From assembly GCA_025716815.1 (NCBI GenBank), contig JAIXMN010000002.1, forward strand, positions 1,550,001-1,614,000: DNA of 64,000 bases. The letters are read 5' to 3'. Each line of letters starts with the position of its first letter. Position 1 is the first letter of the stretch. Shown piece after piece: positions 3,001-63,586 of this stretch. The notes beneath the pieces were generated by a model. It was not told where the DNA came from, made no database searches, and was given only the letters and a program-made list of their open reading frames with translations. The stretch comes from Dichotomocladium elegans. Its lineage: Eukaryota > Mucoromycota > Mucoromycetes > Mucorales > Lichtheimiaceae. A program made the translations under genes and the position numbers.

Positions 3001-3785
3001 TCCCAAGTGCATGTGCTCTCACCAGCTTTCTGTATACCTGTGGCAAGAGATGCAGTGAATAATGAGTCATGTCTTCCTTTCACCTCCCCCACCCTGCAAG
3101 TTTTAATGCCTGTAGGTGTCATGGCCCGCAATGGAGAAAAAATTGGTAATCTGGTGCTAATATACCCCTATGTGGCAATTACTTGTGTCGCTGTCGTTGG
3201 CTATAATGAACTGCGGGAAAAAGCCATTTCCATTTCTGCACCCCAAACGGTCGTCGTATTGATATTTCTTCAAGAGTAGTCGCGCTTCCTACAGGATAAA
3301 AGTCAAGACTTAAGCATCGACAGCTTGCCCTCCCCTGCCGTATCCACAGTATCGTTATGAATATTGTCGATCATTCTACTAGTCTCTCGGCTATGCCTAG
3401 GTCTGTTCAGTTAAGTCGGCCTTACATCTCCTGATCTGCTCGCAAGGAAATAGTAAACCAACTGGCGTACAGAAGCACACAACTTACTTTCCATCACCGT
3501 ATGCACTGTAAAGCGCACTGCAGTCGTGTGGCAGAAGGTACATAGGGTCGTCAGCTTTTATTTTCCGAAATATTGGGTTTACGTTCTCTACGGCTGCAGG
3601 CAAAAACGGCTCAATCCTTTAATAAAGTGATAGACAAACACATTCATATATATATATATATATATGATTTATAGGGTGCGTATGTTCTCTGGAGAATGAG
3701 GCAGTAGAAAGGGAAAATATGTATTTATCCTACAGAAGAAATGGGTAACACAGTAGGAGATGAGGCGGAAATCAGGTGGGATCGC
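1..3785. other. Gene-poor stretch, no confident gene
   Basis: No reading frame here matches a family I recognise. On the minus strand about 815-1140 there is coding-like sequence in two overlapping frames (one reads EPKDDAPMSASGENIIVG) and about 1745-2131 a 128-codon frame. Neither has a recognisable domain or clear splice structure, so they may be decayed gene pieces. AT microsatellites lie near 1768-1783 and 3647-3665. A small cluster of inverted repeats sits at 2666-2724. The rest looks like ordinary AT-rich intergenic DNA. Confidence 0.5.
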
Positions 3786-5530
3786 TCATGCATTGGTAGT
3801 AGCTGTAGCAGTGGCGGCAACGGTAGCGGCAGTTGATGATTGTAACTTGGATATGTCGACTCTGTCAGGCGGGCTTGAAACGCTGCAGGCCCACTTGACA
3901 AGGTCTACTCTGTCAGTTTTTGCACTAACGAGATATTCGTGTTTCTACATAGATGGATATAAATGCATATTGCCAGCGTTAACATTCAGAGGTCGGTCAT
4001 TACAAGGCATAGCTGAGACGACATACCATCAGGTCGCTAGGTGTTGCTCGAAGTTGGACATCCTTGACCAGACTAAGTAAAGTTAAAGTAATTATGGAGA
4101 CTGTTAGAAATACGCACAATGAGCAGAGCCCCGTTCTCACCATTTATCGACAAAGTCCGACAGGACGAGTGGAACTTTGTTGGGAGGGAAGGAAGGAACA
4201 GGTTCATTGACAATGTGTTGCAGAAGTTCAAAGATAGAGAGAGGATCGCCGTCGGGTGGGAAGGGGAACCGTGCAAGGGCAAGTTCCATCAGGGTGATAC
4301 CGAGGGACCACACGTCAGATTTAACAGAATATGGAGAGCCCATGATACGTTCCGGCTGACAAGTTGAGAGGATAGATATAATAGGTTAGCTGGTACGGAA
4401 TCATTAAGTACCAATGTCTGGGAAGGCCTAGCTTACACTCATATACGAGCTAGTGCCGACAAAGGTGTCTGCTACCGAGTCAATAAGGCGTCCAGAGACT
4501 CCGAAATCACAAAGCTTGATCTGTCCCTGAGAGTTGACCAGCACGTTGGAAGGCTTCAAATCTGCATTGGGTCAATGTGCTGTACACCCCAATTTAGTTG
4601 GACTTACCCCGATGGATGATCCGATGCTCGTCATACAAATAGATCAAGCCATCAACAATCTATTGCAGAGAGAAATAGCATGAATTGGTGTGAATCTGAT
4701 CACCAACGTGAAAGCAGGGTCCATCATTCATTTCGTCAAGTTTTCCATTCCCCGTTTAACATACCGCAAAGGCAATCTTCCCCAAGACGTCCAAAGGAAT
4801 AGGGCCGTGTTTCTTATAGATCCTATCCAATGAACTAATGTTCGGTTGGTTGTTAGTAAGTGGAAGTCATAGATAATTCCAATCCATGACTCATACCCAA
4901 CGTCCATATACTCCATGCAAATCGATATATCACCCCCGTTCATGAATGCACCGTAAAAGCTAACAATGTGCCGAGAATTGCAATCGTGCATGAATTGAAG
5001 TTCGCGCATGATTTGTTTCCGGACATTGATGTTGGCTTCAACATGAATGATCTGTCATTGTTTTGAAGGATAAGGGATTGCATGAGTGAGCAAAAAAACT
5101 GTTCTTTCCAAGCCCATAAACCATCGATATCTTTCAATAGAAGGCAACCACCCTTCACGTATGGATGCACACATGCATACACTAGAGATAATGCGAAGGC
5201 ACGCATACGCACAACATTCTTCACTCACGCTCACAAATTTACCTTTTTCGCCATCACAGTATTTGTTCGAACGTGCAGCACTTTGCACACCGTACCACCA
5301 TTGCCACGTCCAAGTTCATCAATGTTCCTAAAGTCGTCTGGACGCAGATCCAGTCGAAGTTCGAGCCCAATCTCTAAATCGCTCAACTGCTCACAGAGCT
5401 TGCTATACTCTTCTTCAAGGCGTCGCACAGATGACCGCCTCTTGTCGACTTTCCCTTCGGCTTTGTTCACAACGACGGGCGAATGGTCGAGAGTCAAGTT
5501 TTTGAAATTACGCTTCTTTCTCAGTGGCAT
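3786..5530 (-). CDS. MAP kinase kinase (Ste7/MEK1 type)
   Basis: Dual-specificity kinase expected to phosphorylate the TxY loop of a MAP kinase in a cytoplasmic cascade. The protein spans several exons. The first (5530-5243) carries a basic, coiled N-terminus and then the glycine loop GRGNGGTV and the ATP-binding lysine in VMAKK. Exon 2 starts at 5051 with [19 protein letters not shown], closely like the MEK1 helix C region. Later exons give [19 protein letters not shown], the activation loop SVADTFVGT with the S-x-x-x-T phosphosites usual for fungal MAP2Ks, then PERI and [16 protein letters not shown]. The last two exons, not obvious as open frames, restore DKCLVKD and a C-terminal KHEYL..VDLVKW segment followed by an Ala/Thr tail ending at the TGA at 3786-3788. 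Motifs and S-x-x-x-T spacing favour the Ste7/Fuz7 group over Pbs2. An in-frame ATG exists upstream (5662), but the chosen start begins the conserved basic N-terminus. Confidence 0.9.
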
Positions 5531-25833: not shown

Positions 25834-27767
25834 TATGCACTTGAGAGAAATAGGTTGCCACCTCGGGAAAAAAAAAGTCGGTATCACATACAGCAAGCAA
25901 GGTTCTACAAAGTGCTGCGGAGCGGCGGAGGTACGAAAGCGCATCATTCCATTGCTAACTTTAGGACAATGGATGGGGAGCACTGGTTCTACGCTCCTTT
26001 GAAGGCGGTTCTGAAAGCCTAGTCCACAGCCAGGCATTTTCGACGATGGTCTTTCAAAAAGTACTCTGACTTTTGTCGAAAAATAAATGTCGTATCAATA
26101 GGCACAAAGGATTCGCATCGATATGGGAAAGCAATAAAACAAAGAATATCGATCCTTCTCCACGCTCTTTAACCTGCACCCTCGTCCGTGGGGGGTTTAG
26201 CCCGTTATGCCCCGGCGATAGCCAGGACGGAGCAGCAGCGGCAGCCAAATCATTGCCACACCAGGGAGTCCGGTATCTGTCGGACTCCCTTGCCATGACG
26301 TTCCATGAGAATGAATAAAGAAGATAGAGTCCCATTATTTATAAGAAATCAAGGCGGACAAACTCTTTGATGGATGGAACAAGAGTACTATTTCCGGCTT
26401 GTACATTTTGCACCGGCTGTAGTCTTGTAAGTCTACTCCTTCCGACAAGCAGCTATTCTCTCAAGAGGGGCAGGATTCTATGTTTGAGAAATAGCAGTTG
26501 TAAGAGCGCAGACCTTCTGATGCACCCCGTATGGAACCATGCCATGCTGCGGTTCATATGAATATGGAATCCTGAATCATCGAGAAAACGCAGTTTGTCT
26601 AAAGTTGATGTCGGTCCTGTCCCATCTGCGCATCCAAGTCAAGGCGCGCTGTTGCAGCACTTTTTCCTGTCTACAGGCTGAAATCGAGCCATTTTCAAAA
26701 CGTGGCATTCGTAAATCGATGGAGCGTCTTTTAGATACTTTGAGACGCTCATATCTTTGAGGCAGTAGCTCCATCAGCTGCTCTAGGACAGTCGACGGAT
26801 TTGTCATCAACGCATCCAGAAATAACGCTCTTCTGCTCTTCATCGAGAATACGCAAACGAACGGACCCCTCACTTTAGGTCTCTTAAAGATGCTGGCACG
26901 TAACTACATCGCTGACCTGAACGTAACATGGATTCCTAGCAGCCGATGCGCTCAAGACCTTCTCAAACATCCGTTTGAAAAATCTGACCCTTGGCTTGGT
27001 CAGTGGACGCTGCGTACCTGCGCTTGATCCCTGCTTATTTCGTCCAGATGTCTGCATTCTTTCGCTTGGCAATGTGCGTAGTAATAAGCTCAGATGGATT
27101 GCAGAGAGTACATTTCCTCAACAACGACATGGCCTTGCCCATCGTAAAAAAAAATAGATCGCTCATTTCAGAAAGTAAAGTATATAAAAAGAGAAAGCGA
27201 CATTTTCGGTGTATTGCATGCGCCATTTGATTTGTCATTACGCGTAAAGATTTCTGGGCTACATGCGATTTTATGTTTGCGACTTTTGGGAAATGAGCGT
27301 TTATCTTTCTAAAGAGGGGAAAGGATCGACATCACCGGAAAACGATGACGTGGTTTGATCTGTATATCCTTTGATCGCCGGACCTATTTGTGGGGGGAGG
27401 TTGGTTGGAGAAGGGACTGTATTCTGTACGCGTCAGTGGGTAAGTGGCCCCCCCTAGTCGCTCTCCCTCTTTGAGACCATGGTGCGTTGTATTTTCCATC
27501 TCCTTCATTTCACCATGTATTCATACGCCCTGTTGCAGGAGACCAGGGAGAGCACATAACCAGTTTGATGCACGGAAGCTTGTCCGGTAGTTAGCGTTCT
27601 CATTCACTCCCTATATTTTTCCCTGGTTGCTTTTTTCATGCGTATACATCACCACAAACATACCGATGTCGGGGTCCCAAAAAATCACCTACGCGTTGCT
27701 TTAAACGGGCTTTTTGCCGGTGGGACGCTTCGGTTGAGGTGGGGCAAGAAAAATACACTTTACCTTG
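25834..27767. other. Intergenic stretch with transposase relic
   Basis: Separates Bax inhibitor-1 from BUD13. Contains a minus-strand Tc1/IS630 relic at 26577-27072 (own entry). A short perfect inverted repeat (GGGAGTCCG and CGGACTCCC around 26268-26290) lies in a GC-richer patch at 26190-26300 that is unlike its surroundings and may be another mobile-element remnant. The last 300 bases, including 27440-27490, form the likely BUD13 promoter. Confidence 0.4.
26577..27072 (-). mobile_element. Relic of Tc1/IS630-like transposase
   Basis: Two adjacent minus-strand frames give, in transposase order, RVRFFKRMFEKVLSASAA (helix-turn-helix start), MTNPSTVLEQLMELL (equivalent of DEDPSAVVTEV in the 38-kb element) and CRQEKVLQQRALTWMRRWD (equivalent of NSQEKILQRYDWVQK). 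Pieces lie in different frames and the DDE part is missing or unrecognisable, so this is a dead copy of the same broad family. Confidence 0.6.
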
Positions 27768-34763: not shown

Positions 34764-35461
34764 TCTATTAAACAGGCCCAATTCCAGCCTGTGGAAAGAA
34801 ATAGCCAAGAAAAGATCCTGCAAAGGTATGACGGGGTACAAAAAGTGCCACGACAAACTGCGTCTTTCTTGATGAATCAGCCTTTCATATCAACTTGAAA
34901 CGGGGTATGGCTTGGTCAAAGAAAGGAGCTCCTGTAATAGTTACAGTGCCTTCAACTAAGCCAAACGCAACATTGATTTTAGGTGCCATATCTGCCACAG
35001 GCTTAATTAATGTTAGTTTGAGAGTTCCAAAACAGATCAAAAAGACAAAACTAGGACAAGAGACTGGCGCCTACAGCAAAGGAACAGTGACAGGCCATTA
35101 TCTGAGCTTTTTGAAAGCTACGCTTGATGAAATGGACAAGTATCCAGAAAGGAAGGAGCATTATCTTGTCATGGATAATGCTCCTATTCATAGCTCAACT
35201 GACATAGGCAAGTACATCAATTCTCGAGGATATCGCTATGTTTATCTTCCTCCATATTCTCCTAAACTGAATCCCATCGAGCGGTTCTGGCCCGTTGTCA
35301 AGAGCAAAGTGAAGAGAAACAGACTCTTGGAAAAAGAAACACTGATGACTAGAATTGCTGAAGCATGCGAAAGTTTATATTTGAGCGACTTTAGAGGCTT
35401 CGCTTCTCATTCTGCCAAATGCGTCAGTAAAGGTCTCAACAAGGAGCGGAGAAAGATATAA
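34764..35461 (+). pseudogene. 5'-truncated Tc1/IS630-like transposase (left copy)
   Basis: DDE transposase of the Tc1/mariner/IS630 superfamily. The open part, 34895-35461, encodes 188 residues. It includes MAWSKKG, YLVMDNAPIHSS with the second catalytic Asp, and YLPPYSPKLNPIERFW with the catalytic Glu. The D-to-E spacing is 34 residues (DD34E, Tc1-like). The first catalytic Asp lies in LLDESAFHINLKRG, just upstream in another frame, so a frameshift at about 34850-34880 separates it from QEKILQRYD. The N-terminal helix-turn-helix is missing because the arm begins at 34764. The same frameshift exists in the right copy, so it predates the duplication. Confidence 0.88.
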
Positions 35462-35533
35462 AAAAGGCGGTGAAAGATCCTGAGCCCCTTTTTCTTGTTG
35501 TCGCTGCATGACCAATTCAATAATCAATACCCA

Positions 35534-36367
35534 ATGACAATTGAAGAAAATTCTGCAATGACAACTGAAGAGGAGACAGCAAGCAAGGAAATATCCAACG
35601 ATGGTCTAGATTCTTTTGAATGCTCGCTTTGCCAAATCGCCTTCAATGATCGCAATGCTCTTTACCGACATCGACGACGGGAACATGTCTTGGAAACAAA
35701 CGTGACTCTTGGTGAATGTAAGTTAAAGAATGTTTCTTGGAAGGAGCAGGATCTTAACATGTTTTATATAGTTGTTAGATGTAATACGCGTCCCTCTCTT
35801 GGCCGGTTGTTTCAGATGTCTCTTAGCAAGCTGTAACAAGCAATTCAAAAAGGTGGACACCTTTAAAAAGCATATGGCTTCATGTCACACTGCAGATGTT
35901 CAAGTTGCAGTGTACGACAATGAATACGATCAAGTACGAAAAAAAAGGAAAATGATGTCTCCTTCGTTCGATCTCAAAACCGGCAGCCGTCTTGCCCTTG
36001 CCAGCAACGAGCAAGCGCTTATCATCAAACTATGGCCATCAATTGTTCACCTATAGCGATGCATTTGAATCATCACAGTCTAACTTCAAGCATTTCCACC
36101 CATGCCCTCATGCGAAAAGAATTTATACTGGACGTTGTTGGCAAAGTTCCATTTCAAGACAATTGCTTCTCTGAATCACTGGAATGTGTCTTACAGTTGC
36201 ATGATGAGGGTTGGCCAAGGTGTGCAATCGTCTATGGAACCCAGTATTGACAGGAATCACATATATGTTGAGAAATCTATTGCTTCATCAAGACTTCCGA
36301 GGCTTATCGACACATTTGCTTTTACCGAAGCAACAACAGAGCTCATTGAATGTCTCAACTTGGATTT
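35534..36367 (+). pseudogene. Two-C2H2-finger gene inside the element (left copy)
   Basis: Starts MTIEENSAMTTEEE at 35534. Exon 1 ends at 35717; a 61-nt intron (35718-35778) leads to exon 2. Finger 1 is FECSLCQIAFNDRNALYRH with spacing C-x2-C-x12-H-x4-H. Finger 2 is C-x4-C-x12-H-x4-H in FRCLLASCNKQFKKVDTFKK plus HMASCH, and is only complete after splicing. The frame then stops at 36054-36056 because this copy lacks one base near 36014 compared with the right copy, where the frame continues. A further frame downstream (EKSIASSRLPRLIDTFAF) suggests more exons, cut off at the arm end. Function unknown: a DNA-binding accessory protein of the element or a captured host gene. Confidence 0.7.
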
Positions 36368-36421
36368 TCGAATTTCGCCCTCACTTTTGCATGCAGTAGC
36401 TCTGCTCCATACTGGTTGCAT
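36368..36421. other. 54-bp spacer of the palindrome
   Basis: Single-copy sequence between the two arms. Its short length means the locus is a near-perfect 3.26-kb palindrome. It has no coding signal. Confidence 0.9.
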
Positions 36422-37258
36422 AAATCCAAGTTGAGACATTCAATGAGCTCTGTTGTTGCTTCGGTAAAAGCAAATGTGTCGATAAGCCTCGGAAGTCTTG
36501 ATGAAGCAATAGATTTCTCAACATATATGTGATTCCTGTCAATACTGGGTTCCATAGACGATTGCACACCTTGGCCAACCCTCATCATGCAACTGTAAGA
36601 CACATTCCAGTGATTCAGAGAAGCAATTGTCTTGAAATGGAACTTTGCCAACAACGTCCAGTATAAATTCTTTTCGCATGAGGGCATGGGTGGAAATGCT
36701 TGAAGTTAGACTGTGATGATTCAAATGCATCGCTATAGGTGAACAATTGATGGCCATAGTTTGATGATAAGCTGTTTGCTCGTTGCTGGCAAGGGCAAGA
36801 CGGCTGCCGGTTTTGAGATCGAACGAAGGAGACATCATTTTCCTTTTTTTTTTCGTACTTGATCGTATTCATTGTCGTACATTGCAACTTGAACATCTGC
36901 AGTGTGACATGAAGCCATATGCTTTTTAAAGGTGTCCACCTTTTTGAATTGCTTGTTACAGCTTGCTAAGAGACATCTGAAACAACCGGCCAAGAGAGGG
37001 ACGCGTATTACATCTAACAACTATATAAAACATGTTAAGATCCTGCTCCTTCCAAGAAACATTCTTTAACTTACATTCACCAAGAGTCACGTTTGTTTCC
37101 AAGACATGTTCCCGTCGTCGATGTCGGTAAAGAGCATTGCGATCATTGAAGGCGATTTGGCAAAGCGAGCATTCAAAAGAATCTAGACCATCGTTGGATA
37201 TTTTCTTGCTTGCTGTCTCCTCTTCAGTTGTCATTGCAGAATTTTCTTCAATTGTCAT
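36422..37258 (-). pseudogene. Two-C2H2-finger gene inside the element (right copy)
   Basis: Mirror copy of 35534-36367. The start is complementary to 37256-37258. Both fingers are preserved. A run of 10 A (8 in the left copy) directly after DQVRKK shifts the frame, so the first frame stops there. Further downstream the frame that is broken in the left copy stays open here (MMSPSFDLKTGSRLALASNE through GWPRCAIVYGTQY, 36838-36539). The two copies are therefore broken at different places in the same gene. Confidence 0.7.
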
Positions 37259-38027
37259 AGGGTATTGATTATTGAATTGGTCATGCAGCGACAACAAGAA
37301 AAAGGGGCTCAGGATCTTTCACCGCCTTTTTTATATCTTTCTCCGCTCCTTGTTGAGACCTTTACTGACGCATTTGGCAGAATGAGAAGCGAAGCTTCTA
37401 AAGTCGCTCAAATATAAACTTTCGCATGCTTCAGCAATTCTAGTCATCAGTGTTTCTTTTTCCAAGAGTCTGTTTCTCTTCATTTTGCTCTTGACAACGG
37501 ACCAGAACCGCTCGATGGGATTCAGTTTAGGAGAATATGGAGGAAGATAAACATAGCGATATCCTCGAGAATTGATGTACTTGCCTATGTCAGTTGAGCT
37601 ATGAATAGGAGCATTATCCATGACAAGATAATGCTCCTTCCTTTCTGGATACTTGTCCATTTCATCAAGCGTAGCTTTCAAAAAGCTCAGATAATGACCT
37701 GTCACTGTTCCTTTGCTGTAGGCACCAGTCTCTTGTCCTAGTTTTGTCTTTTTGATCCGTTTTGGAACTCTCAAACTAACATTAATTAAGCCTGTGGCAG
37801 ATATGGCACTTAAAATCAATGTTGCGTTTGGCTTAGTTGAAGGCACTGTAACTATTGCAGGAGTTCCTTTCTTTGACCAAGCCATACCCCGTTTCAAGTT
37901 GATATGAAAGGCTGATTCATCAAGAAGGACGCAGTTTGTCGTGGCACTTTTTGTACCCAGTCATACCTTTGCAGGATCTTTTCTTGGCTATTTCTTTCCA
38001 CAGGCTGGAATTGGGCCTGTTTAATAG
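36422..38027 (-). repeat. Right arm of 1.6-kb inverted repeat
   Basis: Reverse complement of 34764-36367 with an estimated identity of about 98 percent judged by eye. Unlike the left arm, the element continues past this arm (to at least 38503), so the right copy is the longer one and the left copy is 5'-truncated. Confidence 0.95.
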
Positions 38028-38503
38028 ATAGATGGCATTCAGTTGTCATGAAGTTATAAATAGTGCTATCAGAAACATTAAGACCCACAAAGTTTTGCAT
38101 TACACTTTCTGCCACTTCAGTTACAACAGCAGACGGATCTTCATCAATCTAGTTTAAAAGAAACTGCTTATGCTCTTCTCCAGATACTTTCGGGTCCTCG
38201 TAATAACGCTTGACCCATCTCTGCGCTGCTCGGACATGAATGCCTAACTGTCTCCCTGCAGCAGAAGCATTCAAGCATTTGCTAAAAAAATAAATGGAAA
38301 AATTTAGTCTTATCTTCATCAGAGTAAACAGTATAACATCTCTTATTGCATAACTCCATATAAGCATCCACACTGCTCCTCTCATCTGCAACGGCACGCA
38401 TTACAGGATTATGAGGCCTCTCAGGAGGTTTATTCGCTAGGAATTGAGTACGAGAACTGATTGTTTCGATAGCGAACAACTCCTCGTCAACAGCAAGATC
38501 CAT
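37331..38503 (-). pseudogene. Tc1/IS630-like transposase (right, longer copy)
   Basis: Longest copy of the element's transposase. From 38503 it reads an acidic leader with MDLAVDEELFAIE, then KTKFFHLFFSKCLNASAAGRQLG (helix-turn-helix; a 7-T run at about 38282-38288 shifts the frame inside it), AAQRWVKRYYEDPKVSGEEH, an in-frame TAG, and IDEDPSAVVTEVAESVMQNF. The DDE half (37897-37331, 188 codons) is open with MAWSKKGTPAIVTVPS, VMDNAPIHSS and NPIERFW, DD34E spacing. The upstream frameshift between WVQK and LLDES is shared with the left copy. Differences from the left copy in the DDE ORF (for example P/S, V/M, G/S, Q/R) are mostly transitions. At least three lesions make this copy inactive unless introns or recoding explain them. 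Confidence 0.88.
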
Positions 38504-38527: not shown

Positions 38528-40177
38528 AACATGTCCTCGTCCATCTTCATAAAAAAATTATAAAGTAAATAGGAAAAAGAAACGCAAAAGGAAGCAATAA
38601 AAAATCCTGCCTTTATTATAAAAATAAAATGCCACGAGATTCAGCACATGCGAACACGGCTTTATTGCTGGATCAAACGACATCATTGTTGAACACGCAC
38701 GACACCAAACTCAAAAAATAGCGACTTTACTTTTTAAAATGACTGTATTTAGGACCAAAAATGAATAGTAGCACACGATAGCTAGTCTACAAAAATACAT
38801 AGAAGAGGAAGTACGAACGTTCCAGATAATGTAACAACCGCAATTGTAAGTGCCATGTTATGCAGTTCTGAAACGTAACTCCATAACAGTTTGATGTGCG
38901 ATGGTAGCCCATGGGCTTCTTTAACAGGCGGACAGGATCCGTATCTTGTACTTTAAGGAGTTTTGTCTGGATTACCACGGTATCATACATCTTTTCTATC
39001 TCTCGCTCCATCTCTGGCCATGGTCACGACTGGATATAAAGAATACGTATTCCCAAAGACTCTTGAGGAAATCTGTCGGATCATATCAATGACATAATTT
39101 TCTTTTTCCCTTCGTGCAGATCTCAATGGTCCGACTGCAATATACACTTGGAACGTTATTGAAGAATATCGCAGGCAAACACGCGCCGCCTCCATTTCAA
39201 ACGCCTTTGTAGAAGTGTGTGCATATATATTTAATAGCCAGAAGCTTGACATGTAGATTCTGAACGACCAGCATGTATTAACGCTACTTGGGGGGGGGGC
39301 AGCATTCTAAGAGTTTATATTTTCAACGGTAATATTCATTGCATACCTATTGCAAGCACGGTGCATCTCCTATCCATTGTTCATTTCTTATATCCTGTGA
39401 TTATACGTGATGTTAACGCTTTACAAAACGCTAAAAGCATGTTTAGTAAAGGTGCGTAGTCCATATCCCTTTATTTATTGAATGTACATGCCATTGTAGT
39501 TAACATGTCCTTCCGTAAACCCTTTCGCCCTTCTTTCCGCAAAGGTATTGGAAAATAAGACGATATGATCCGCAGATTTGACATAGCCCATGGCAGCGCA
39601 TCCATGCAAGCAGCCAACTACATGACTTAAAGGGTGGTTTGGTAGTGCTGGTTTGCAAGTTGCACTATGATACTGCCAAGACATAGAGCGTGCGTACAGT
39701 TCAGGAGCACATGCATTTGCGCGTTAGCCTTGACAACGCATATCCTATTAATACATGTTCTCTATACTACCTCACAACACACGTCATTCCGTCTTCTATG
39801 CATATCTCACGGCATTGATATTTGTCTCATTTCCATACGTGCCTCTATCTCTACTCTAAATAAGGTTCGTGGCGACGGATTCTCACATCGATGGTGAAGT
39901 GGTCCACCCTAATTTTGTAAGCAGTAGAGAGTATCGTAATTTTTTCTGGGCCCACTTTTTTCCCCCCAAAACGTTTGCCCAATCAAAAAGACGTGGACCT
40001 ATTCTGATTTCACCCCTTCTTTCGCGGTGCTTCCTTTCACTTGCTTCCCTGTGCTGGCCTTGAATCGAGGACCATTTTGGGTTTATACAAGTCGAGTTGT
40101 TCTGTATTGGCTGAGCCTTTTCCTTTTAATACCCTTGTACCTTTCCTTTTTGTGCGTCCTAATTCACAGCTTTCAAG
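38528..40177. other. Intergenic stretch
   Basis: Between the transposon copy and the first coiled-coil paralog. Minus-strand frames at 38787-39011, 38983-39252 and 39475-39684 are short and unrecognised. The true 5' end and terminal repeat of the right-hand element should lie within about 38504-38650, but I could not identify a terminal inverted repeat. The last 150 bases are the CT-rich promoter of the next gene. Confidence 0.4.
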
Positions 40178-41449
40178 ATGGCCTCTGAATCCCACTTGAC
40201 TGATCCCATGTATGAAGAGGATCCTTTTGCTGCTGGCCAGTCCCTTGAAGAAGAGTTACTCGGAAAGGGGTATTATATGGAAGCGCCTCTCGGATCCTCT
40301 CTTGCAGCCGAGCTCCACTCGGCCACGAGCGGCCCACCGCTCTCGCCTCCTGTAAGCAATAATGGGAACAGCAAGCTCGTTGCGATGGCAATGAACCGCA
40401 GCATGTCCAGTCCGATGCTCGACGAGCCTTCGTCGCCGTACGGAAAATCAAATCCGCCGGTGATTGATTTACATAAATTTACCAACGGCAGCGAGGGTGA
40501 CGATGCGGCGACCGCCGTGCGACTGCCCAGAGGGATGGATCCTTTTTCGAATCAGACGAGCCCGACTATATCGTCTTCTGGTCATCAGCAGTGGTCGGCG
40601 GCTATGAGCGTTTCTACAAGCATGTATGGCCGAAGCCGACGTTCGTCATTTTCATCCACATGGTCGTCCCTGGATGCGGAAGACGACGACCCCTTTGAAG
40701 CACTCAAGCGACAGCTAGAAGAACTCAACTCGGCCGTGTGGGAAACCAAAACGCTTCACAAACGCCTGTTTAATACCTTGTTAGCCGATGATACGCGAAA
40801 CAAATCGAACACCGGCATCACCAGCAGTAGCAACCATAGCAATAATAGTACCCTAAACCAAGGCGCAAGTCATTTTGCCCCTCCACTCGAGCTGGTCATC
40901 ACCTCCGTCGCCAACCTTGTCGAAGCAAAGTCCCGTGACCGCGAGCGCCAAACAAGTTATCTACGGAACGTCGATAACCATATTCGACAGGAAATAATGT
41001 GGATGAACCCGGAAGCAATCCGCGATCTCGAAAGTCTTTTCGCATCCATGAAATCAACTTTACACGACCAGGCTTACTCGTACGAAAACCCACTTCCAGC
41101 CATCCGCAAGCTGAACATGGAAACCTCCTCCATGACCGAGTCGCTTGAGGAACTCAAGGAAATCATGTACGTCTCTAAGCGACACGTTCAGGAACTCAAC
41201 TCACGCCTCCGATCGATTGCCAAGACCGTGCACGAGGTCCGCAAGGACATTCGACGGATAAATAAGTTCTTGGAAGAAAAGGACGACGACGACGCGGTGA
41301 TTCTAGAGAAGGGCGAGGTTGAGCAACGGGTCAAGGATATCATGTGGGGACTGGATGATCTGGACGAAAAGAGCTCGCGAGAGATCCGACAGATGCAGCT
41401 CTGTTGGGAAGGCCGTCTTGATGAAGTCGTCGCGGCTACTTCATCTTAA
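40178..41449 (+). CDS. Conserved coiled-coil protein, paralog A
   Basis: Single-exon gene, 423 residues, starting MASESHLTDPMYEEDPFAAG. Regions in order: an acidic N-terminal motif (DPFAAGQSLEEELLGKGYYM), GSSLAAEL, a low-complexity middle, the conserved RRSSFSSTWSSLDAEDDDPF, a helical block QLEELNSAVWETKTLHKRLF, an ITSVANLVEAKSRDRERQTS block, and a long C-terminal coiled coil ending EIRQMQLCWEGRLDEVV. The paralog at 48232-49332 shares every block. No catalytic motif was seen and I do not recognise the family. The architecture suggests a cytoskeletal, septum or trafficking scaffold, but that is inference only. The Ser/Arg motif RRSSFSS is a plausible phosphorylation site for a basophilic kinase. 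Confidence 0.85.
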   Translation: MASESHLTDPMYEEDPFAAGQSLEEELLGKGYYMEAPLGSSLAAELHSATSGPPLSPPVSNNGNSKLVAMAMNRSMSSPMLDEPSSPYGKSNPPVIDLHKFTNGSEGDDAATAVRLPRGMDPFSNQTSPTISSSGHQQWSAAMSVSTSMYGRSRRSSFSSTWSSLDAEDDDPFEALKRQLEELNSAVWETKTLHKRLFNTLLADDTRNKSNTGITSSSNHSNNSTLNQGASHFAPPLELVITSVANLVEAKSRDRERQTSYLRNVDNHIRQEIMWMNPEAIRDLESLFASMKSTLHDQAYSYENPLPAIRKLNMETSSMTESLEELKEIMYVSKRHVQELNSRLRSIAKTVHEVRKDIRRINKFLEEKDDDDAVILEKGEVEQRVKDIMWGLDDLDEKSSREIRQMQLCWEGRLDEVVAATSS

Positions 41450-43150
41450 GCAGAGAACTTCTCGATGTTTATACTGTATACCTCACTTTCTGTCTGCTAG
41501 CTTTTAAGTTGTACAATCTCTCTTATTCCCCACGCCCCTGCTTTATCGTCCTCCAATCCCGACTTCTTGCGACCAATTCCAGCAATGTGTACTCTGTTTT
41601 CCCTCTGTCTACCCTCCTGCGACATAAATGCCACAAAGTATATATCCTTTAAATCAAACGTTGGGCAATACCTCTGTTGTCTGCAAATTAAATATATAGA
41701 AATACAAATATATATATCGCTTACTAGTAAATTTGTATCAAGTCTACTCAGCCAAACCCTTCTTGACACATCAGTCACCGGAATATTTGATCCCGGAGCC
41801 CCATACAGTATCTCTCGCGCGCTTCTCTCTCTCTCTTTCTATCGAAGATAGAAGAACAGGGTCTCTGTGTGCGACATTGCACAATGTCGTACACCAAAAG
41901 CTGAGTATCAACCAATTTTTAACTAAAATAATGACCAGAAGAGGATGTAATGGTAATAACAAGCAATCCCTCTCGAGAGAGAGAGAGGCAGAAGTTCCGG
42001 GTCCGTTCTTGCAAAAAATGCAAGTTTTTTCCCGGGCATGTGGAGGAGGGTGACGGAAAACGACAAGTATCAATTTTTAGTCAGATACGATGTTCGTTAT
42101 ACCCACGATTCTTCGTCGACAACAGAGACGCCCTGCGCATTTTTCTCAACTGGTATATTTAAACCAGTTACTTTTCTTGTTCATTTTGAGGGAAAGAATA
42201 CCAAGCAGTTCGGCTGAAATCTTTTGCAGGAGGTTGTTCAAAAGGAAGAGAGCTTGAGGGTAGGCCGATGCTGGATTAGGAAATGGATGGTTTATTGGAT
42301 TTTCAGCCGCGACATCGCAAATGATTTTGCATTGTGCCTTGTCATCACCTTGTTTGCTTTTGCCCGCTGCTGCTGGTTACATCGTCGTCATTTTCACACT
42401 GAGAAAAGCATCGAAATTACTGAGCGCTTCAGAACGCATCATTGTCAGCAGCGAGGGCAGTGTTGCATTGTGCTTCAATGACTTTTTATCACGTGCTTTG
42501 TTAATAGGAACATCATCAGCCACCCCACAAACAAAGGCTTCCTCCACTGATGACGATAGACGCAGTTCCAACGCAGGAAAATCTTCATTGCGTAATACTG
42601 TATTTGGGATGGTACTTCACTCACCAGTAGCATATGTTTGATATTGATCCAAGTCATATGCTGCGCAACTTGTTGCTTGATGGAGGCAGAGAATGTTGGT
42701 GGACTTTTCTCGCTGGAGACCTGTTGGCAAAGTAAGAGGATTTAAAACAATATATGCGCTTTGTTATATTCCAAGAAAATCGCAGTATGTGGGCTCATGG
42801 TTTCTTTGTTAATAATAAACCCATAGGAATGCTTAGCAGAATGTTGATCACCAAAAATGGCAGGAGGACTGTCATCACTTGTCAAACAGCTACTGCTTTG
42901 AAGAGATCGCTCAAGCTGCTCGCCAGCAGCATCGGCAGAAGCGAGTACTGCTGTGTTGCTCTTATTCCTCGATCTTCCCAGCATACCTCTTGGAACTTAT
43001 TTACGTAATCTCAGCAAACTCTTCTCTGCGTTGCACAGAATTATTGTTAAAAGTTGACAGAGAAACGCATAAATAGGTGAATGAGTTTATCAATTATCCT
43101 TTCTTTTTCTTCGAACTCGATGTATCCCCAGCCGCATACGTACTTGCCAA
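41450..43150. other. Gene-poor stretch before the Fanzor relic
   Basis: 3' region of paralog A followed by unassigned DNA. Plus-strand sequence at about 41985-42060 encodes a short cysteine-containing piece (RVRSCKKCKFFPGHVEE). Minus-strand frames at 42377-42571 and 42742-42984 are coding-like but unrecognised. Some of this could be the 5' part of the mobile unit that carried the Fanzor gene. CT and GA repeats lie at 41821-41840 and 41974-41988. Confidence 0.35.
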
Positions 43151-45119
43151 ACTCATTTTAGATCGATAATTGCCGAAGACAAGGTCAACGTCCTCAAGAC
43201 TTCTTTGAGAACTATTGGTTGGAACAGGAGTACCAGGAAGCGCTGGAGGAACTGGTGCAGACTACCCACTTTTTTACTACTCATACATACCAGTTGTCGC
43301 GCTGGATCCTCCTCCATGGGCTGGAACACGGCCGTGACTTCAATCCCAGCGTGGTCCTCGGCCAAGCATTCTTTTATGAAGTATTCCTCAGTTTGGCTGG
43401 GAGAAAGATCATGCACAAGAAGGTTAAAGCATCGACCAAGGTTATTAGAACGCTCATACAGACACACCTTGAAGACCACAAGAAGTCTGCCGACATTGAA
43501 CCTGGGCAACACCGCAACGTATCCCAGGTGACAGCCTATGTAAGCACTGACATTATGACAGTCTACAAAGTTAATGTCCAGTTGCGGTTTGGCGAGTGTT
43601 CCCAGCGCGCTATGAACACTCGGTTGAACGTACGCCTGCGGAAGGTAAGATCTACGCAAGGAAATGGTTAACAAGGATGAACACGAGCTCCAGCCCATCC
43701 TCGCTGAGTTGTCACCGATCCTCCAATGTATGGCGACGCTTTTGCATTCGCAGAAGATGATATATGCTTGACGTCAAGAAATCTCTGGAGAGCTATCTTA
43801 ATGCTTCTAAGCGTTCCGCACATCAACACTCGAATCCTCTGCCAGCACATATCAAGGCAGGCATCCATTAAAGCACAATTGATCGAGAAGACATGGGGTA
43901 ATGTACTTGGCCTCATGTCCAAGGTGTTCAATGATAGGCATGGCAAAAGATTCTTAGGAGCGGTAGAGGCAGATGGAGTATCTATATCGATCATACTCAA
44001 GACCCCTGGCGCAAAGAGGAGCCTCAATTGCAAGCGAAATCGGACTGATGATGATGATACGAGGAGCAAAGACACTCAGAGGAAGCAGATTTTTCCTACA
44101 TTCATGACGTCCCACAAGACGAGTTACAAGACACCGAGGGAATATGCCTTCTCATTGATCCGGGCCGTTGTGATATTCTTTATGGGATGCACGAGTTGAG
44201 CACACCCGAGCTCTCCAAAATACACCGGTATACGCGCAACCAGCAGGCCCAAGTAACAAGGATGGTGAGCTTTTACCGGATACACGACATCTTCAAGGAC
44301 CGTTTTCATGACAAAAACTCTATCCGCTAGGCCGATGATAGGCTGCACAGATAACCCATAGCACCGTCAATGCCGTCAGGTACAAGCTTTACGTCGAGGT
44401 CTGAGGAAGGGAATGGTCGCTTCTCAGCAGCTTTTACAGCAGTACCATCACTATCTATATGGTATCGATGCACCCCGCGCACAGAAAGTATGGGCCGGCA
44501 AAAGCGGCTGGGGGAAGTGTCGAGCCAGAAATATGCATCCTTATACTGATCATGAGGCGTATAATTATCCACTCCATCGGAAATTGCGCCTCTCTGCCTA
44601 CATCAACCAAAGATAGGCTGATGCTAGATGAGTGCGGATGATACGACTCAAGTTCGGAAGGGACACCATACCTTTCAGAGGAAGTTGGACTGCATCCATG
44701 GCCCGTTAACATGAGGCCATCCGCGGCAAGGGTGGGCGGGAAAGGTTCAAGAGGTATGTGTTCAGGGCTCATTTGATTGACGAGTACCGCACCTCCATCA
44801 CCTGTCCCGAGTGCTCCAGCCGCCTGGAGTCCTTCAAGTGTGACTTAAATCTGCCACCATGACAGCGAGCAAGGCGTCCTAAGCTTAAATGCCATGTGCT
44901 TCTAAGGTATACAAACCTGAGTCCATGGAAGAGGTTACGGGATTGTCTCGATTGTGGCTTTGGAACAGAGGCACTGCGGCCGTGCTCAACTTCAGCCACA
45001 TCCTCCTGAGCCTCCGGGTTAATGGCGATATTCCAGAATGGTTCCGACACGCCAAATCGCAGGACGACAGTGAAAGTGACCTGGCACTCGCCAAGTCTGC
45101 AAAGGGCAAGATACAGTAA
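43150..45119 (+). pseudogene. Decayed Fanzor (eukaryotic TnpB-like RNA-guided nuclease)
   Basis: Remnant of a Fanzor protein, the eukaryotic relative of transposon TnpB and Cas12. Pieces appear in order in different frames. The N-terminal region (43219-43671) has FTTHTYQLSRWILLHGLEHG and AFFYEVFLSLAGRK. The RuvC-I block at 44151-44265 is LIDPGRCDILYGMHELST followed by KIHRYTRNQQAQ, matching the Fanzor pattern DPGRRD-L-Y-MHE with the catalytic Asp kept. Next come HRKLRLSAYINQR (44575-44615), WTASMAR-stop-HEAIRGKG (44683-44730), LIDEYRTSITCPECSSRLES (44773-44838), the zinc-ribbon start, and a C-terminal end (44956-45119) with LWNRGTAAVLNFSHILLSLR and GDIPEWFRHA. The family has WNRD in the RuvC-III site; here it is WNRG, losing the catalytic Asp. 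Multiple stops and frameshifts make it non-functional. A short perfect palindrome follows at 45136-45153. Confidence 0.85.
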
Positions 45120-46026
45120 CTGCTGCTACTAACAATTCACGAGTGAATTGCTAGCGCAAAGGCTAATTCCGGAATAAACAAGATACTTTGGCTACTCTCC
45201 ACTCGATGAATGGAGGGGAGGCACCCTGTAGGTGAGCCGGATGGGAAGAGAGCAATGCGGCCTGCTGTGTGACAGCAAAAAGACTCGATCTGCAAACATC
45301 ATCATTTCGTTGTATGTCCATCGGCTTATTGCACGCATAAATTGCCTCTATTGACCCACAAATACTGTTTACTGATGGCCAGATTCCCATGATCGCGCGA
45401 GGCAAACTTGAGTGAAAATAAAAGTTGAAAGATAGCTGACTTATTGACAATTAAATAACTTTTGCGCATAGCGTGTATCGTCTTTATCTGTCTCGAAGAA
45501 GAGAGCTTTTAAAGCAGATAACCGGTCACGAACAATTCCCATCTTCCTGAGAAAGCTGTTCTCGCAAACCTGAAGCACTGTCCGTTTATATTTGTGTTGA
45601 ATAAAAGCATTGATATATATGCCGTCCACCATTTCGACCTTGGCTGTGTATCCCCAAATTTATTCTCTCTATGGTCATAGAGCCTCCTTGTATCAGTATA
45701 ATGACACACTCTACGATGTACAAAGATCTGCGATACATGCCACGCCGCTAATTGTCGACTTTATCTGTGACTGAGCTCCGTAAGGTTCAATGCTCGACGT
45801 GTCACTGCAGTATGTAGCCATAGTAGATAGACACTCATCAGCTACCATAATATCATGTCGCCAATTGAAAGTCATCGGGGGAGGGAAGGGGCATAACTGC
45901 ACGGTAGACAATGAAGTTAGGATCTTGGATCTCTTGCTTTATTCACGGTATTTAGCGAATCAGCGCACCGCCGAAGCATGGTGCCTACCAAAAAGTTTTC
46001 CCCCATAAATATAAGAAAACCTCAGC
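45120..46026. other. Intergenic stretch after the Fanzor relic
   Basis: Begins with the palindrome CAATTCACGAGTGAATTG (45136-45153). Minus-strand frames at 45163-45450, 45441-45632, 45509-45709 and 45711-45911 lie end to end and look coding-like (for example DIMVADECLSTMATYCSD), but no family could be named. They may be a second decayed mobile-element gene. The last 100 bases are the rhomboid promoter. Confidence 0.35.
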
Positions 46027-47053
46027 ATGTCTTTTGCCATCATCATTGATATGCTCCACCTATTCACAGCTCAACGCGTCTTTCTGGTTCACAAGGTCAG
46101 CCACAGAAACAACCACATCTTTCAGAGATTAGCTATGCCTCGTTTAAAATCAGGCGTCTCGCCAAAAATACGAACGATTTCTACATGTCAGAGACACCGT
46201 CCTGTTAGTAACCGACCCGTCGTATCGCTCAGTCAACAGACGTTCCGCCGTTATACGACCGGACCGTCATCTTCGCGATCGCCCTTGCATGAGAGCTGCG
46301 CGGAAAAGCTTCGTCAGTGGATGTCCATTGCCTACAAAGGTTATCCCGCCCTCACCGGAATTGTTCTGGTCAACACTGCCGTCTTCTTCATATGGCAGAA
46401 CCGTGAAAACGCTGATGTCATGGCGAGGCATTTTGTGCATAAGGATCAGGACCTAAGCCAAGGTTACTGGTACACGGTTCTTACTTCTGGATTCTCGCAG
46501 GAGGGTCTATTGCATTTCGGATCCAATATGCTTTTCCTCTGCACTCTCGGTCGCCACGCAGTTCCTCTCCTGGGAAATGGAGGTTTCTTAGCAGCCTATG
46601 CTTGCCTCACCGTTGCGTCTTCGTTAGCTACTCGAGCATACCACACCTACATATATCCCCGTCATCACAACCATAAAAGCGGTTATCAATCGCATGGGGC
46701 TTCTGGCGCTGTGCTCGGCCTTCTTGGCTTCATTGGCGTAGCTGGTAAGAACAGCTATTTTCACTCTATTCCAATATGACAAACAATCTCTAACAAAAGC
46801 CGCATTTTTCCCATCCCAACCAGTGCCACACGTCCGTCTGTTTACCGATTTTGGGTTATCCTACCATAACTACTTTGTTATCGCTGCGTGTGTTGCGGGT
46901 GAAACGATCGGTGCTCTCTCAGGATTGCACTGTAACTGTTTCGGTGATAGTGATCCGGGACTGGAGAGTAATATAGACTATTCTGCTCACCTTGGAGGAT
47001 TGATTACTGGTATTATGGGAGGTATAGCCATGCGGATGGTTAGAAAAATGTAG
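46027..47053 (+). CDS. Rhomboid intramembrane serine protease
   Basis: Polytopic protease that cleaves transmembrane helices. Two exons: 46027-46744 and 46824-47053, intron 46745-46823. The N-terminus is basic and Ser/Thr/Arg-rich, consistent with a mitochondrial presequence, as in Pcp1/PARL-type rhomboids. Conserved elements: a first membrane helix (ALTGIVLVNTAVFFIW), the HF-x(2)-N motif in LLHFGSNMLFLCTLGRHAV, the catalytic serine in HGASGAVLGLLGFIG, and the catalytic histidine in DYSAHLGGLITGIMGG. Both members of the Ser-His dyad are present. The intron falls right after the serine helix. Its 3' end is 144 bp before the start of another mitochondrial gene, uL11m, on the same strand. An in-frame later ATG (MPRLKSG) is an alternative start. 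Confidence 0.92.
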
Positions 47054-47641: not shown

Positions 47642-48231
47642 AGTTTTCGCTTTCTCTCTCTCTCTTTCACTCTATCTCCCCCTTAATTCCCTCTTCCCTG
47701 CTCTCTTCTTTGCCCCTCATCCTCCATTTATACATATATAAACCGATCCAGACAAGAAGAAAAAGAACTATTTTTGTACAGTACTTTTAGCTCTTTTAAT
47801 TGCCTAATTAGATTCGGATACGTTGAGCAGCAAAAATGGTTGAATGACATACCGTGATGGCTTCGCGCAACGGAAGATGGAGTAAAGGGAGGATCATGCA
47901 TCGTAAAAATAGGCATGTTTTCATCTGATTAAATAGAATGGGCATATGCATACATGTCTGCTTCATAAAACCAACTTTGCTTGATTCTACCTTCCACCCC
48001 CCCTCACTCACAGACCTCTTGCAAACGTCGGAGTGGCCAACGCAGCTGCGTCACAAGGTAACCTCCCGTTTAAGTTTCCTGGCTCCCTCCCTTCCTTCTC
48101 CCCCCCCCAAAAAAAGCCCGCATCGCCCAGAACCCCTTTTTTCATTGCTCTCTTTTTCTCTCTCTTATTTTTTCTCACTTCCTCGTCAGACTTCCCCCCT
48201 TCACTTCTCTCGATTATACCCCTCATCTAAA
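47642..48231. other. Intergenic region: uL11m 3' end and paralog B promoter
   Basis: 590 bp with pyrimidine-rich tracts (47650-47720 and 48075-48215). The frame of paralog B is open upstream to 47938, but the extra sequence is low-complexity and absent from paralog A, so it is treated as leader. Confidence 0.5.
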
Positions 48232-49332
48232 ATGGCATCTGAAACTCACTTGGGGAATTCATTCTTTGATGACGACCCATTCGCCGCCGGGCAGTCGCTT
48301 GAGGAGGAATTGCTTGGAAAGGGGTATTTTATGGAACCCCTTGGATCCTCGCTGGCAGCTGAATTGAGCGGATCCTCATTGGCGGCAGAATTGAGTTCTG
48401 CGACGAATGGCCCACCAGCACAGCCTCCTATAGGCGGAAACAACAAACTTGCGTCGCTGGCTATGAATCGCAGCGTGTCAAGCTCGCTCCTCGATTCACG
48501 GCGCTATGGAAAACATACACCGCCGGACATCCATCTTGTGGGTGGGAACAGCACAGACGCAGTAGAAAGCCCCGTCCTGTCACCGCCATGGTACGGTCGC
48601 AGCCGGCGCTCGTCATTTTCATCCACATGGTCGTCGCTGGACGCCGAGGACGACGACCCTTTTGAGATGCTCAAGCGTCAGCTAGAGGAGCTAAATTCGG
48701 CGGTGTGGGAAACCAAGACGCTCCATAAGCGTCTCTTCAACACGCTCTCCTCGGATGGCAATATGCGCACCACGCAGCCACCGCTAGAATTGACCATCAC
48801 ATCCGTCGCAAACCTCGTCGAACTAAAGTCTCGCGACCGCGAGCGCCAGACGAGCTATCTGAGAAATGTGGATGGCCATATTCGCAAAGAGATCATGTGG
48901 ATGGACCCCGACACGATTCGAGAACTCGACAGTCTCTTTGCGTCCATCAAATCAACGTTGCACGATCAGACCTATTCCTACGAAAATCCACTCCCAGCCA
49001 TCCGCAAGCTGAACATGGAAACCTCCTCCATGACCGAGTCGCTCGAGGAACTCAAGGAAATCATGTACGTCTCTAAGCGACAGGTTCAGGAACTCAACTC
49101 GCGTCTCCGATCGATCGCCAAGACCGTACACGAGGTCCGCAAGGACATTCGACGGATAAATAAGTTCTTGGAAGAAAAGGACGATGACGATGCGGTGATT
49201 CTAGAGAAGGGCGAAGTTGAACAACGGGTCAAGGATATCATGTGGGGACTAGATGATCTGGACGAAAAGAGCTCGCGAGAGATCCGACAGATGCAGCTCT
49301 TTTGGGAGGGCGACATGACCACGTTTTCTTAA
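48232..49332 (+). CDS. Conserved coiled-coil protein, paralog B
   Basis: Single-exon gene of 366 residues, starting MASETHLGNSFFDDDPFAAG, the paralog of 40178-41449. It has the same blocks: GQSLEEELLGKGYFM, RRSSFSSTWSSLDAEDDDPF, QLEELNSAVWETKTLHKRLF, and a C-terminal coiled coil. It is shorter, lacking most of the low-complexity middle. It carries a short internal tandem duplication (LGSSLAAELSGSSLAAEL). The last 300 coding bases are nearly identical in DNA to those of paralog A, while the upstream part differs more, including silent sites. The extreme ends differ (FWEGDMTTFS here versus CWEGRLDEVVAATSS). Same unknown function as paralog A. Confidence 0.85.
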   Translation: MASETHLGNSFFDDDPFAAGQSLEEELLGKGYFMEPLGSSLAAELSGSSLAAELSSATNGPPAQPPIGGNNKLASLAMNRSVSSSLLDSRRYGKHTPPDIHLVGGNSTDAVESPVLSPPWYGRSRRSSFSSTWSSLDAEDDDPFEMLKRQLEELNSAVWETKTLHKRLFNTLSSDGNMRTTQPPLELTITSVANLVELKSRDRERQTSYLRNVDGHIRKEIMWMDPDTIRELDSLFASIKSTLHDQTYSYENPLPAIRKLNMETSSMTESLEELKEIMYVSKRQVQELNSRLRSIAKTVHEVRKDIRRINKFLEEKDDDDAVILEKGEVEQRVKDIMWGLDDLDEKSSREIRQMQLFWEGDMTTFS

Positions 49333-61380: not shown

Positions 61381-61915
61381 TGACGTTGCCTTTGCTATTC
61401 CTATGGAACCGCAACTATTGCATTTCATGTAAATACGAAACACAGATTCATCAACGAGAATCGCAATTTCTTCTAAACCCAATGCCAGATATGCCCCCAT
61501 CGACGCTCTCATTCAAGGTGCTATTGAATCTTCACACCATTTTTTCCGGCTCCGTATAAAATGAAATCGAGTTCTTCTAATGGCATTATATTAATAGATT
61601 GTATGGAAAGTCGGTTTGGATAATTGATGTACCCAAACCCTTGAACAACCGGTCCGTAGGTTGCTCTAAAACAATGGATGGACTATCATGATCGCATTTC
61701 AAATTAACAATATGTGAACGACTCATGGTTCCTCGTCTCTTCAAAATGCTGTAGAATTCAATTTCATAGTGCCACGTCCAATCTCTGTGCTTCATATATT
61801 GTTTTCCTAGCTGTGTTATTGTAGCTGATGCATTCAAAACCTTTTCAAGCATTAGCTTGACAAATCTGACCTTGTCTTGGTCAATGTAACTTGCAGATTG
61901 TACGCTGTACGAACT
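61380..61915 (-). mobile_element. Relic of Tc1/IS630-like transposase
   Basis: Minus-strand pieces in transposase order: IDQDKVRFVKLMLEKVLNASAT (helix-turn-helix), RDWTWHYE, a basic SILKRRGTMSRSHIVNLKC linker, DSPSIVLEQPTDRLFKGLG, and about 61500-61390 LEEIAILVDESVFRIYMKCN, which holds the first catalytic Asp. The rest of the DDE domain is missing. It lies directly next to the MITE at 61968-62251. Confidence 0.65.
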
Positions 61916-61967
61916 AAATATTATAAAATCCGAAAATTCTGTATGTTAAACACCAAAATTTCCTATA

Positions 61968-62251
61968 GGAGGTCATCCAATACTCGCTTATATTGCTCGC
62001 AGTGATCTAGATAAAGGCTCTACACCAGGGTATGTGCAATCGGGTATATCGTTGCAATTCTTTCTAGAATTTTATCCAGCAAGTATCAACCTGTTTTTAA
62101 AAATCATGGTTACCATTTTTCTGGACAATGGTCAACATTCTGGACACGCATAACCTGTAGTTAGGTTGTGACTCTATAATTGTACATACCATGGTGTAGA
62201 GCCTTTATCTAGACTAATGCGAGCAATGTAAGCGAGCATTGGATGACCTCC
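61968..62251. mobile_element. MITE with 60-bp terminal inverted repeats
   Basis: A 284-bp non-coding element. The left terminus 61968-62027 begins GGAGGTCATCCAAT and ends GGCTCTACACCA; the right terminus 62192-62251 is its reverse complement with about six mismatches. The 164-bp middle has no coding frame. TA-containing flanks (TATA before, ATAG after) are compatible with the TA target site of Tc1/mariner elements, but the exact duplication is uncertain. Confidence 0.88.
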
Positions 62252-63586
62252 ATAGTGGTAACTTCGCATAGAACCTGCTCCTTCAATCAGGATGTCTGTA
62301 TCCTTTCGCTTGAGATTGTGTGTGGAAAGTTACTTTTACAAGACAGATTACACAGGGATCCTGTATACGAACAAGTAAATAGAGGAGAGCACACTTCCTC
62401 TCTTCAAGGACATAGTCATTCGATTCAGAGCAGCAATGTTCATAAAAAACATGTCACTTTATGCAGTGGATGGTGTAAACAGACACTAATAAGTTGTGAC
62501 ACTCGAAGGTAGTGGACTTTATTAGAGAAAAGAATGAAGATGAATAATACGAATGTATATCTGTATAAACTTAATCGCTATCCTGTCACAAATCTCAGGA
62601 CACGGCACTTTATATGTTGGCAAAGGAACTGATTGCTTTTTCCAGAATGACAAATGTGTATGGAAAGATAGAAAAAGTTGACACATTTTATAAAGGTGAG
62701 TACCGCGCTTTTGAGCGATATCATATCCTCATGTACGCAGCGTTTGATTTTCGCCTTACGCAAACATTTCTTGGAAAATGTGGCTTTTGAATCGAGAGGC
62801 ATGACACTCTAGTTTAAGAGATGGTGCATATCATGTTGATATCCAATGCGTTAGTGAAATGCACCGCCAAATAATGGGTTAGACGCTTTATATCCTATAT
62901 CAATAATTATGCGTTTTTTCCAGCTACATCTTCAGTTCAGTATGAGACGACAGATATTCGTCTATTGACGTGTTTTCGAATCAATATATTCTGTACTATC
63001 GCCCCTCGCTGAGTTCAATTCCATGGCTCAGCAAAGCCTGCACCTGAGTGATTCCAGTAGCTGCTTTTCTCTTTACCCGATATAGCACAATAAAGTTAAA
63101 TAAGCTATGTATGCGCCATCGAGAACTGACAACCGGCTATCAACCTCGAACCATTGGTGAAGAACGTCTACGTTATCTGGCATTTCAAATGAAACCATTG
63201 GTCACTACAAATACTATGACTGATCTCTGCAGAGGACGAATCGAAACAGTATCTGTAAAATTCCTCGGCTTGTTCTTCACAACATAACGATAACTCATCG
63301 CAATATCACAATAGCTTCAACACCAGAACCTCAAGAAAGTACATAGATAACCTGAAACTGAAAACATTTGCTTTATATGAGACACCAGCTGTAATAGTGA
63401 GACAGCATTTGTCGCTGTGCTATGGTTGAGGATGAAATGGCTGTAAAAAGGTTCTGGAAGGTAATTGTTATGGTCATTACATCCATTATATTTCATATTG
63501 AAAAAGCAGGGCGATATCGCTGCCATGCTTGTAACAATCATTGAGGGAAAAGTAAGGGGAACGAAGACATAGTATTATGTATATAT
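62252..63586. other. Gene-poor stretch
   Basis: A plus-strand frame at about 62613-62789 begins MLAKELIAFSRMTNVYGKI and one at 63090-63285 contains ELTTGYQPRTIGEERLRYL. Both look protein-like but neither is recognised nor supported by splice structure. Otherwise AT-rich intergenic DNA. Confidence 0.35.

Follow-up and report, generated by a model that had tools for sequence, protein, structure and literature searches.

Transposable elements that encode only a Fanzor1 protein, have mariner-like ends and duplicate TA have already been described (Bao and Jurka 2013, PMC3627910). According to this study, TA at the junctions is typical of Tc1/mariner elements, and D...[TS][TS]xx[C4 zinc finger]...RD constitutes the Fanzor1 motif set. 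Its mariner examples stem from other organisms, and the carriers given there for Rhizopus, Phycomyces and Mucor are of MuDr type. A non-autonomous carrier encoding Fanzor1 only was also reported for SfAV (Yoon et al. 2023, PMC10711439), where the guide RNA extends ~15 nt beyond the target-site duplication; the same report describes the biological function of Fanzors as little known. In case of Spizellomyces punctatus, Fanzor1 occurs in many copies per genome, a guide RNA from the 3' end is documented by RNA-seq and cleavage assay, and a conserved CA precedes the left end, with CATA as TAM (Saito et al. 2023, PMC10432273). The solved protein closest to those studied here is Fanzor1 of Parasitella parasitica (PpFz1, PDB 9cf0), the TAM of which (ATN) was tested biochemically (Xu et al. 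2024, PMC11423790); a RuvC insertion is reported there in Parasitella and Rhizopus only.

The window, i.e., the whole analyzed stretch of 64,000 nucleotides from Dichotomocladium elegans, harbours a dead copy of a Fanzor1-carrying mobile element. The genome contains two Fanzor1 families, A (an old and a young subfamily, the window copy belonging to the former) and B. The Fanzor1 is identified by sequence, and copies of both families occur genome-wide with constant ends and TA at most junctions. Probably, the window copy represents a dead non-autonomous DNA transposon with Fanzor1 as its only gene, which would have been mobilised by a Tc1-like transposase and retained in a guide-dependent manner. 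As a member of Fanzor1 the relic is ordinary; of interest are the apparently intact family B, a one-sided target-site motif and the cross-phylum placement. Searches of an open literature library retrieved no paper on Fanzor in Mucoromycota, Fanzor in Coemansia, or transposable elements of D. elegans.

Families A and B, known from their sequences, share the RuvC and zinc-ribbon motifs of PpFz1. Between the aligned RuvC blocks family A is ~65 residues shorter than PpFz1. The D. elegans elements resemble the Fanzor1-only elements with mariner-like ends of Bao and Jurka (PMC3627910) and agree with the SfAV carrier in encoding only Fanzor1; the latter, however, is viral, of unknown transposon family and furnished with clear terminal inverted repeats (PMC10711439). 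High copy number is shared with S. punctatus, and the CA at its left ends is similar in pattern to the WCTA of family A (see below), whereas host and ends are different and the guide-RNA candidate in D. elegans is derived from DNA.

Fanzor1 families of D. elegans and their relatives in other fungi

The genome (39.4 Mb in 122 contigs) was searched for further copies, as the earlier note had suggested. Family A was found at at least 40 places including that of the window (DNA search, 40 scored of 73 candidates), of which 18 were assigned by our own count to the young subfamily and 22, including the window copy, to older or more decayed copies. Older copies start with TTGGATTTTTCTCGGC and end with ...AAAATAAAAG before TA, young copies start with CAGGATTTTTCCTAGCC and end with ...AAATAATAG. 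The protein of a sister copy (669 aa) matched Fanzor1 of P. parasitica (E 2e-105) and of S. punctatus (E 1.3e-50), homology to characterised Fanzor1 proteins extending along most of its length.

None of the 17 distinct young copies read (24 of 25 locus records; an eighteenth young copy is devoid of the 5' part) contains a complete Fanzor gene free of interruptions. In the copy with the longest open stretch (693 codons, counted from the start region), the start is altered. Divergence of young copies from L022, an open copy, amounts to 2–5 %, with third codon positions no more changed than the others; each young copy thus decays neutrally. All 13 older copies examined carry at least 6 frame-changing indels relative to L022 and differ from it by 26–31 % at third codon positions and by 12–22 % at first and second ones. 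Since third positions differ more than first and second, the Fanzor gene was under selection between the subfamilies.

One D. elegans protein annotated as PPR-type (P0058, contig C57, 2059635 bp) shares 73 % identity with the family A Fanzor over part of its length; a relic may have been incorporated into this gene model. Two copies on contig C112 with shared flanks (L027/L028) are likely products of a segmental duplication; a frame of Tc5/pogo type (2847–3971; DDE_1 and HTH_Tnp_Tc5 tested in L027) lies beside their right-end break. At eight loci (L118–L125), right ends of old family A are present without a listed Fanzor match. They may represent copies devoid of the gene, comparable to the ghost elements of S. 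punctatus, or else relics that were not scored; because only 40 of the 73 candidates were scored, the status of ghost elements is not claimed.

Family B shares 37 % identity with family A (protein search of the genome, 66 of 766 candidates scored) and comprises at least 39 copies, including one present as two parts, with 94–100 % identity over the main match (DNA search, 40 of 1128 candidates scored) and an element length of ~3.94 kb. Among the 30 N-terminal matches listed, 16 possess the longest open frame (737) without a stop, so many copies are apparently intact. In the two copies read letter by letter (L075 and L076), a frame of 639 codons is followed by one of 97 codons. The two seem to be joined by an intron (GTATGA...CAATAG), which interrupts the zinc ribbon after CHGLLR and before CTNQNC. 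PpFz1 is matched by the 639-codon frame (E 8e-120), and WNRD is located in the other. The 114 database relatives listed for family B include none from D. elegans, so the family seems to be unannotated. The expectation that better-kept relatives of the relic exist elsewhere in the genome was hence borne out by the many full-length open frames of family B, whereas none of the 17 young copies read in the relic's own family has a whole gene.

A further diverged Fanzor-like lineage (L002 and L003, with PF07282 matches) has ends similar to those of family B, and in L003 the left-end sequence recurs inverted downstream of the gene. In the window itself, relics akin to the 5' region of family B and to its Tc1-like kin are located on the minus strand at 26577–27331 and 61586–62400.

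Relationships to other fungal proteins were inspected in two trees, with group labels of our own (Bifiguratus counted with Mucorales). The first tree comprised 51 proteins, hand-chosen by length and taxon from 159 listed, plus one copy per family. It places family B among Mucorales and Syncephalis, and family A within a set with 9 Coemansia rows (support 100/97). In the second tree (shorter stretch, 5 long rows dropped, 7 added including one Piptocephalis, P0127 excluded), family A groups with Kickxellomycotina (96/85), with Piptocephalis outside. This grouping suggests that family A was horizontally transferred; any such transfer would be old rather than recent, because identity to the nearest relatives is only ~50 %.

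Alternatively, families A and B could be vertically inherited, the common ancestor of Mucoromycota and Zoopagomycota having possessed two old Fanzor1 lineages that were later lost many times. This is a real possibility, even though not the favoured one. The low identity of family A to its closest relatives is compatible with descent, as is the weakness of the second-tree branches that nest family A inside, rather than beside, Kickxellomycotina (85/49 and 86/74). On the other hand, no other mucoralean row is found on the side of family A and Kickxellomycotina in either tree (0 of 22 and 0 of 20, respectively). Together with the first-tree set shared with Coemansia, the rejection of a topology keeping Kickxellomycotina apart from family A (p 0.0014, the group having been chosen after inspection of the similarity lists) also speaks against vertical descent. 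Relatives are carried by Dispira, Syncephalis and Piptocephalis, all of which are parasites of Mucorales.

Probable carrier transposon, proposed target-site motif and candidate guide RNA

No transposase gene was seen in elements of family A or B. Young copies of family A are bordered by TA at 13 of 13 right and 13 of 16 left junctions (altered in L031, L138 and L140), family B elements at 22 of 22 left and 21 of 21 right junctions. By eye, the terminal inverted repeats are short, imperfect and of TAC...ATTTT type. Two elements of ~3.9 kb with an internal DDE_3 match (Table 1) have ends that are, on either side, 77–80 % similar to the left end of family A. In case of family B, a Tc1-like relic adjoining the A copy L019 shares 79 % identity with positions 153–603, and the family's left 416 bp are 97 % identical to a stretch on contig C90 (926108–926524) with a DDE_3 match at 925221. 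The transposase stretch beside L019 recurs at at least 40 places (40 scored of 902 candidates), several of them beside strong DDE_3 matches; this piece alone yielded a weak DDE_3 match (E 0.022) and no match in PDB (phmmer). Since kin with similar ends carry a Tc1-like transposase, families A and B appear to be non-autonomous and to move as passengers of transposons of Tc1/mariner type. Ends similar to IS200/IS605 or Helitron elements were also considered and dropped in view of the TA junctions and the Tc1-like kin. One search with joined flanks retrieved no empty site, and the duplication of TA on insertion is thus presumed.

At 16 young insertions of family A (excluding the duplicated copy on C112 and L042 with its replaced left end; TA altered in three), C precedes the left TA in 15 cases, and the letter before is T in 11 and A in 5. 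The left TA is thereby preceded by WC in 15 of 16 insertions, compared to a background of ~10 % of the TA sites in the window. To the right of TA, 13 young copies display no preference (C4 T4 G3 A2). At eight distinct ends of transposase-type elements, with CTGGATTTTTCCTGGCC following TA (family A: CAGGATTTTTCCTAGCC), the letters before TA are G5 A2 C1. WC is found at 1 of these 8 ends versus 15 of 16 in young family A (Fisher p 0.0002; p 0.0005 by insertions), the comparison set being small (8 ends and 7 insertions of elements without a listed Fanzor match, DDE_3 listed in 4). Restricted to ends of elements with listed DDE_3, WC is absent (0 of 5; p 0.0003 versus young family A). By analogy to S. 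punctatus, with its conserved CA at the left end and CATA as TAM, WCTA is predicted to be the guide-dependent target motif of family A.

A different explanation, less likely in our view, is that WC-TA reflects a target preference of the transposase or the element's own left end, the Fanzor having no role in persistence. TA junctions as such are typical of Tc1/mariner elements (PMC3627910), WC may belong to the family A element itself, and the readable left ends of older copies have WC in only 4 of 7 cases (C in 5 of 7; TT in the window copy). Moreover, TATA precedes all 22 left ends of family B, and also 2 of the 3 transposase-bearing relatives read; it therefore need not be a Fanzor motif and may be the transposase's own preference, so TATA is not supported as a Fanzor-specific TAM of family B. 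Of four further transposase-element ends retrieved, two missed the terminus and were left out. Against an origin of WC from the transposase stand the letters before TA at the near-identical termini of the transposase-type elements, and the one-sidedness of the motif, since a transposase preference should be symmetric. The first letter of WC is far more variable than the element letters, and as it varies between T and A across the 16 insertions it is not fixed by descent.

Guide RNAs of the D. elegans families, as envisaged in the earlier note, we infer from the DNA. The 3' end of the gene carries a 7-bp hairpin in family A as well as in family B, with the same UUAUCG loop on stems of different letters (family A, GGCCCUG-UUAUCG-CAGGGUU with two outer G-U pairs; family B, GCGUCAG-UUAUCG-CUGACGC). 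This loop on a stem of at least 5 bp occurred once more in the DNA examined and not in the window, the copy of which has lost the hairpin. Young and old majority sequences agree at 43 of 45 positions of the hairpin core, which was chosen by eye, compared to 80 of 98 near the terminus. Single-sequence folding was unremarkable for family A (z -1.19) and modest for family B (z -2.16), and Rfam yielded no match. The hairpins are thus suggestive of a guide-RNA scaffold, as a candidate only.

The proposed course of events would start with excision of an element by a Tc1-like transposase acting in trans and its reinsertion at TA. Transcription of the element's 3' end would furnish a guide RNA consisting of a scaffold, terminating at the right end of the element, and of the adjoining right flank as the actual guide. 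Using the left-hand motif (in family A, WCTA) for recognition, the complex of Fanzor and guide would next cleave the empty site once restored, and the element would return to it through repair templated by another copy. Copies landing beside the motif would be kept and multiplied, and later decay of the nuclease gene would leave fossil copies such as that of the window.

Tentatively, WC-TA may be regarded as a footprint of RNA-guided selection in a eukaryotic genome, left by units that may have crossed fungal phyla, perhaps via mycoparasites. If this applies, the transposase would use many TA sites, and only TAM-adjacent copies would be restored after excision and persist. D. elegans offers a natural comparison in this regard, namely between Fanzor-bearing and Fanzor-free elements with similar transposon ends but different target-site motifs, and the near-identical, apparently intact copies of family B render guide RNAs, motif and restoration of copies directly testable.

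The decayed copy in the window

The earlier note had described a fossil Fanzor gene at 43150..45119, recognised by four ordered motifs on the plus strand. All four motifs are present in the claimed order, with the frame changing between them (Table 1). The relic falls within this span, but the mobile unit is larger than had been assumed. Fanzor identity was corroborated by the L022 protein, which matched the window at E 3e-110 in five segments (tblastn), well above chance expectation, and by two window frames matching P. parasitica Fanzor1 in PDB (E 2.1e-13 and 1.5e-6). The D...[TS][TS]xx[C4 zinc finger]...RD set was recognised visually in family B as well as in young copies.

Table 1. Features of the window copy (positions in the window) and of two related transposase-type elements (contig positions)
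Feature	Position	Strand	Basis
Whole decayed element, older subfamily of family A, ~3.13 kb; left TTGGATTTT, right AAAATAAAAG	~42295..45424	+	Alignment with sister copies
Left junction TA, expected target-site TA	42293..42294		Most sister copies have TA at both junctions
Right junction dinucleotide TT; TA in sister copies	45425..45426		Alignment with sister copies
Fanzor1 relic, reading region with stops, frame changes and three losses	43169..45119	+	Start placed by alignment; tblastn of L022 protein
RuvC-I motif LLIDPGRCDILYGMHE, Asp kept	44148..44195	+	Window reading, PDB match
Conserved motif HRKLRLSAYINQ	44575..44610	+	Window reading, tblastn
RuvC-II Glu and first zinc-ribbon CxxC, LIDEYRTSITCPECSS	44773..44820	+	Window reading, Pfam, tblastn
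RuvC-III region LWNRGTAAVLNFSHIL, catalytic Asp changed to Gly at 44970-44972	44958..45005	+	Window reading, tblastn
Two small hairpins, candidate guide-RNA scaffold	45190..45240	+	Well-kept part of 3' noncoding region
Right terminus, expected scaffold end; flank beyond would be the guide	45396..45424	+	Analogy with PMC10432273, PMC10711439
~3.9 kb element	C112:221516/225441		DDE_3 at 224858-225007
~3.9 kb element	C55:155718/159530		DDE_3 at 158956-159132

The profile search of the translated region gave a mixed outcome: one of six window frames matched the PF07282 zinc ribbon (E 0.0011), albeit under the curated cut-off, another had a chance-like match, and four had no match in Pfam. That the relic represents an unrelated zinc-ribbon or host gene is highly improbable, for although its pieces remain under the Pfam cut-off for PF07282, the two window pieces tried have strong PDB matches to Fanzor1 only, the sister copy matches Fanzor1 at E 2e-105, and the copies are repeated with constant ends, so that this reading was ruled out.

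The decay diagnosed in the earlier note is evident. Alignment with the L022 protein reveals 9 in-frame stops and 4 frame changes (tblastn), and the RuvC-III codon specifies Gly instead of the Asp (WNRD) present in the young copies read; the last Asp of the Fanzor1 motif set is thus replaced, as fits a dead copy. Relative to L022, the window copy differs at 16, 18 and 27 % of codon positions 1, 2 and 3, respectively. Alignment with young copies further displays three internal gaps (near 43690, 43810–43819 and 44049–44085). Their interpretation as introns absent from the window copy was rejected, since L022 is open straight across them in one long frame; coding DNA was therefore lost from the window copy.

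Insertion of the unit between two duplicated host genes, as previously proposed, is correct insofar as related genes (40163–41446 and 47929–49329; 67 % amino-acid identity) flank the relic. However, a rhomboid gene (46015–47053) is also located between them. Neither flanking gene has a Pfam match over the cut-off.

Elsewhere in the window, a near-perfect palindrome (98 %) of 3.27 kb is located at 34764–38028. Each of its arms contains a DDE_3 match, and in the one arm tested the DDE_3 frame is followed by a C2H2 zinc-finger frame.
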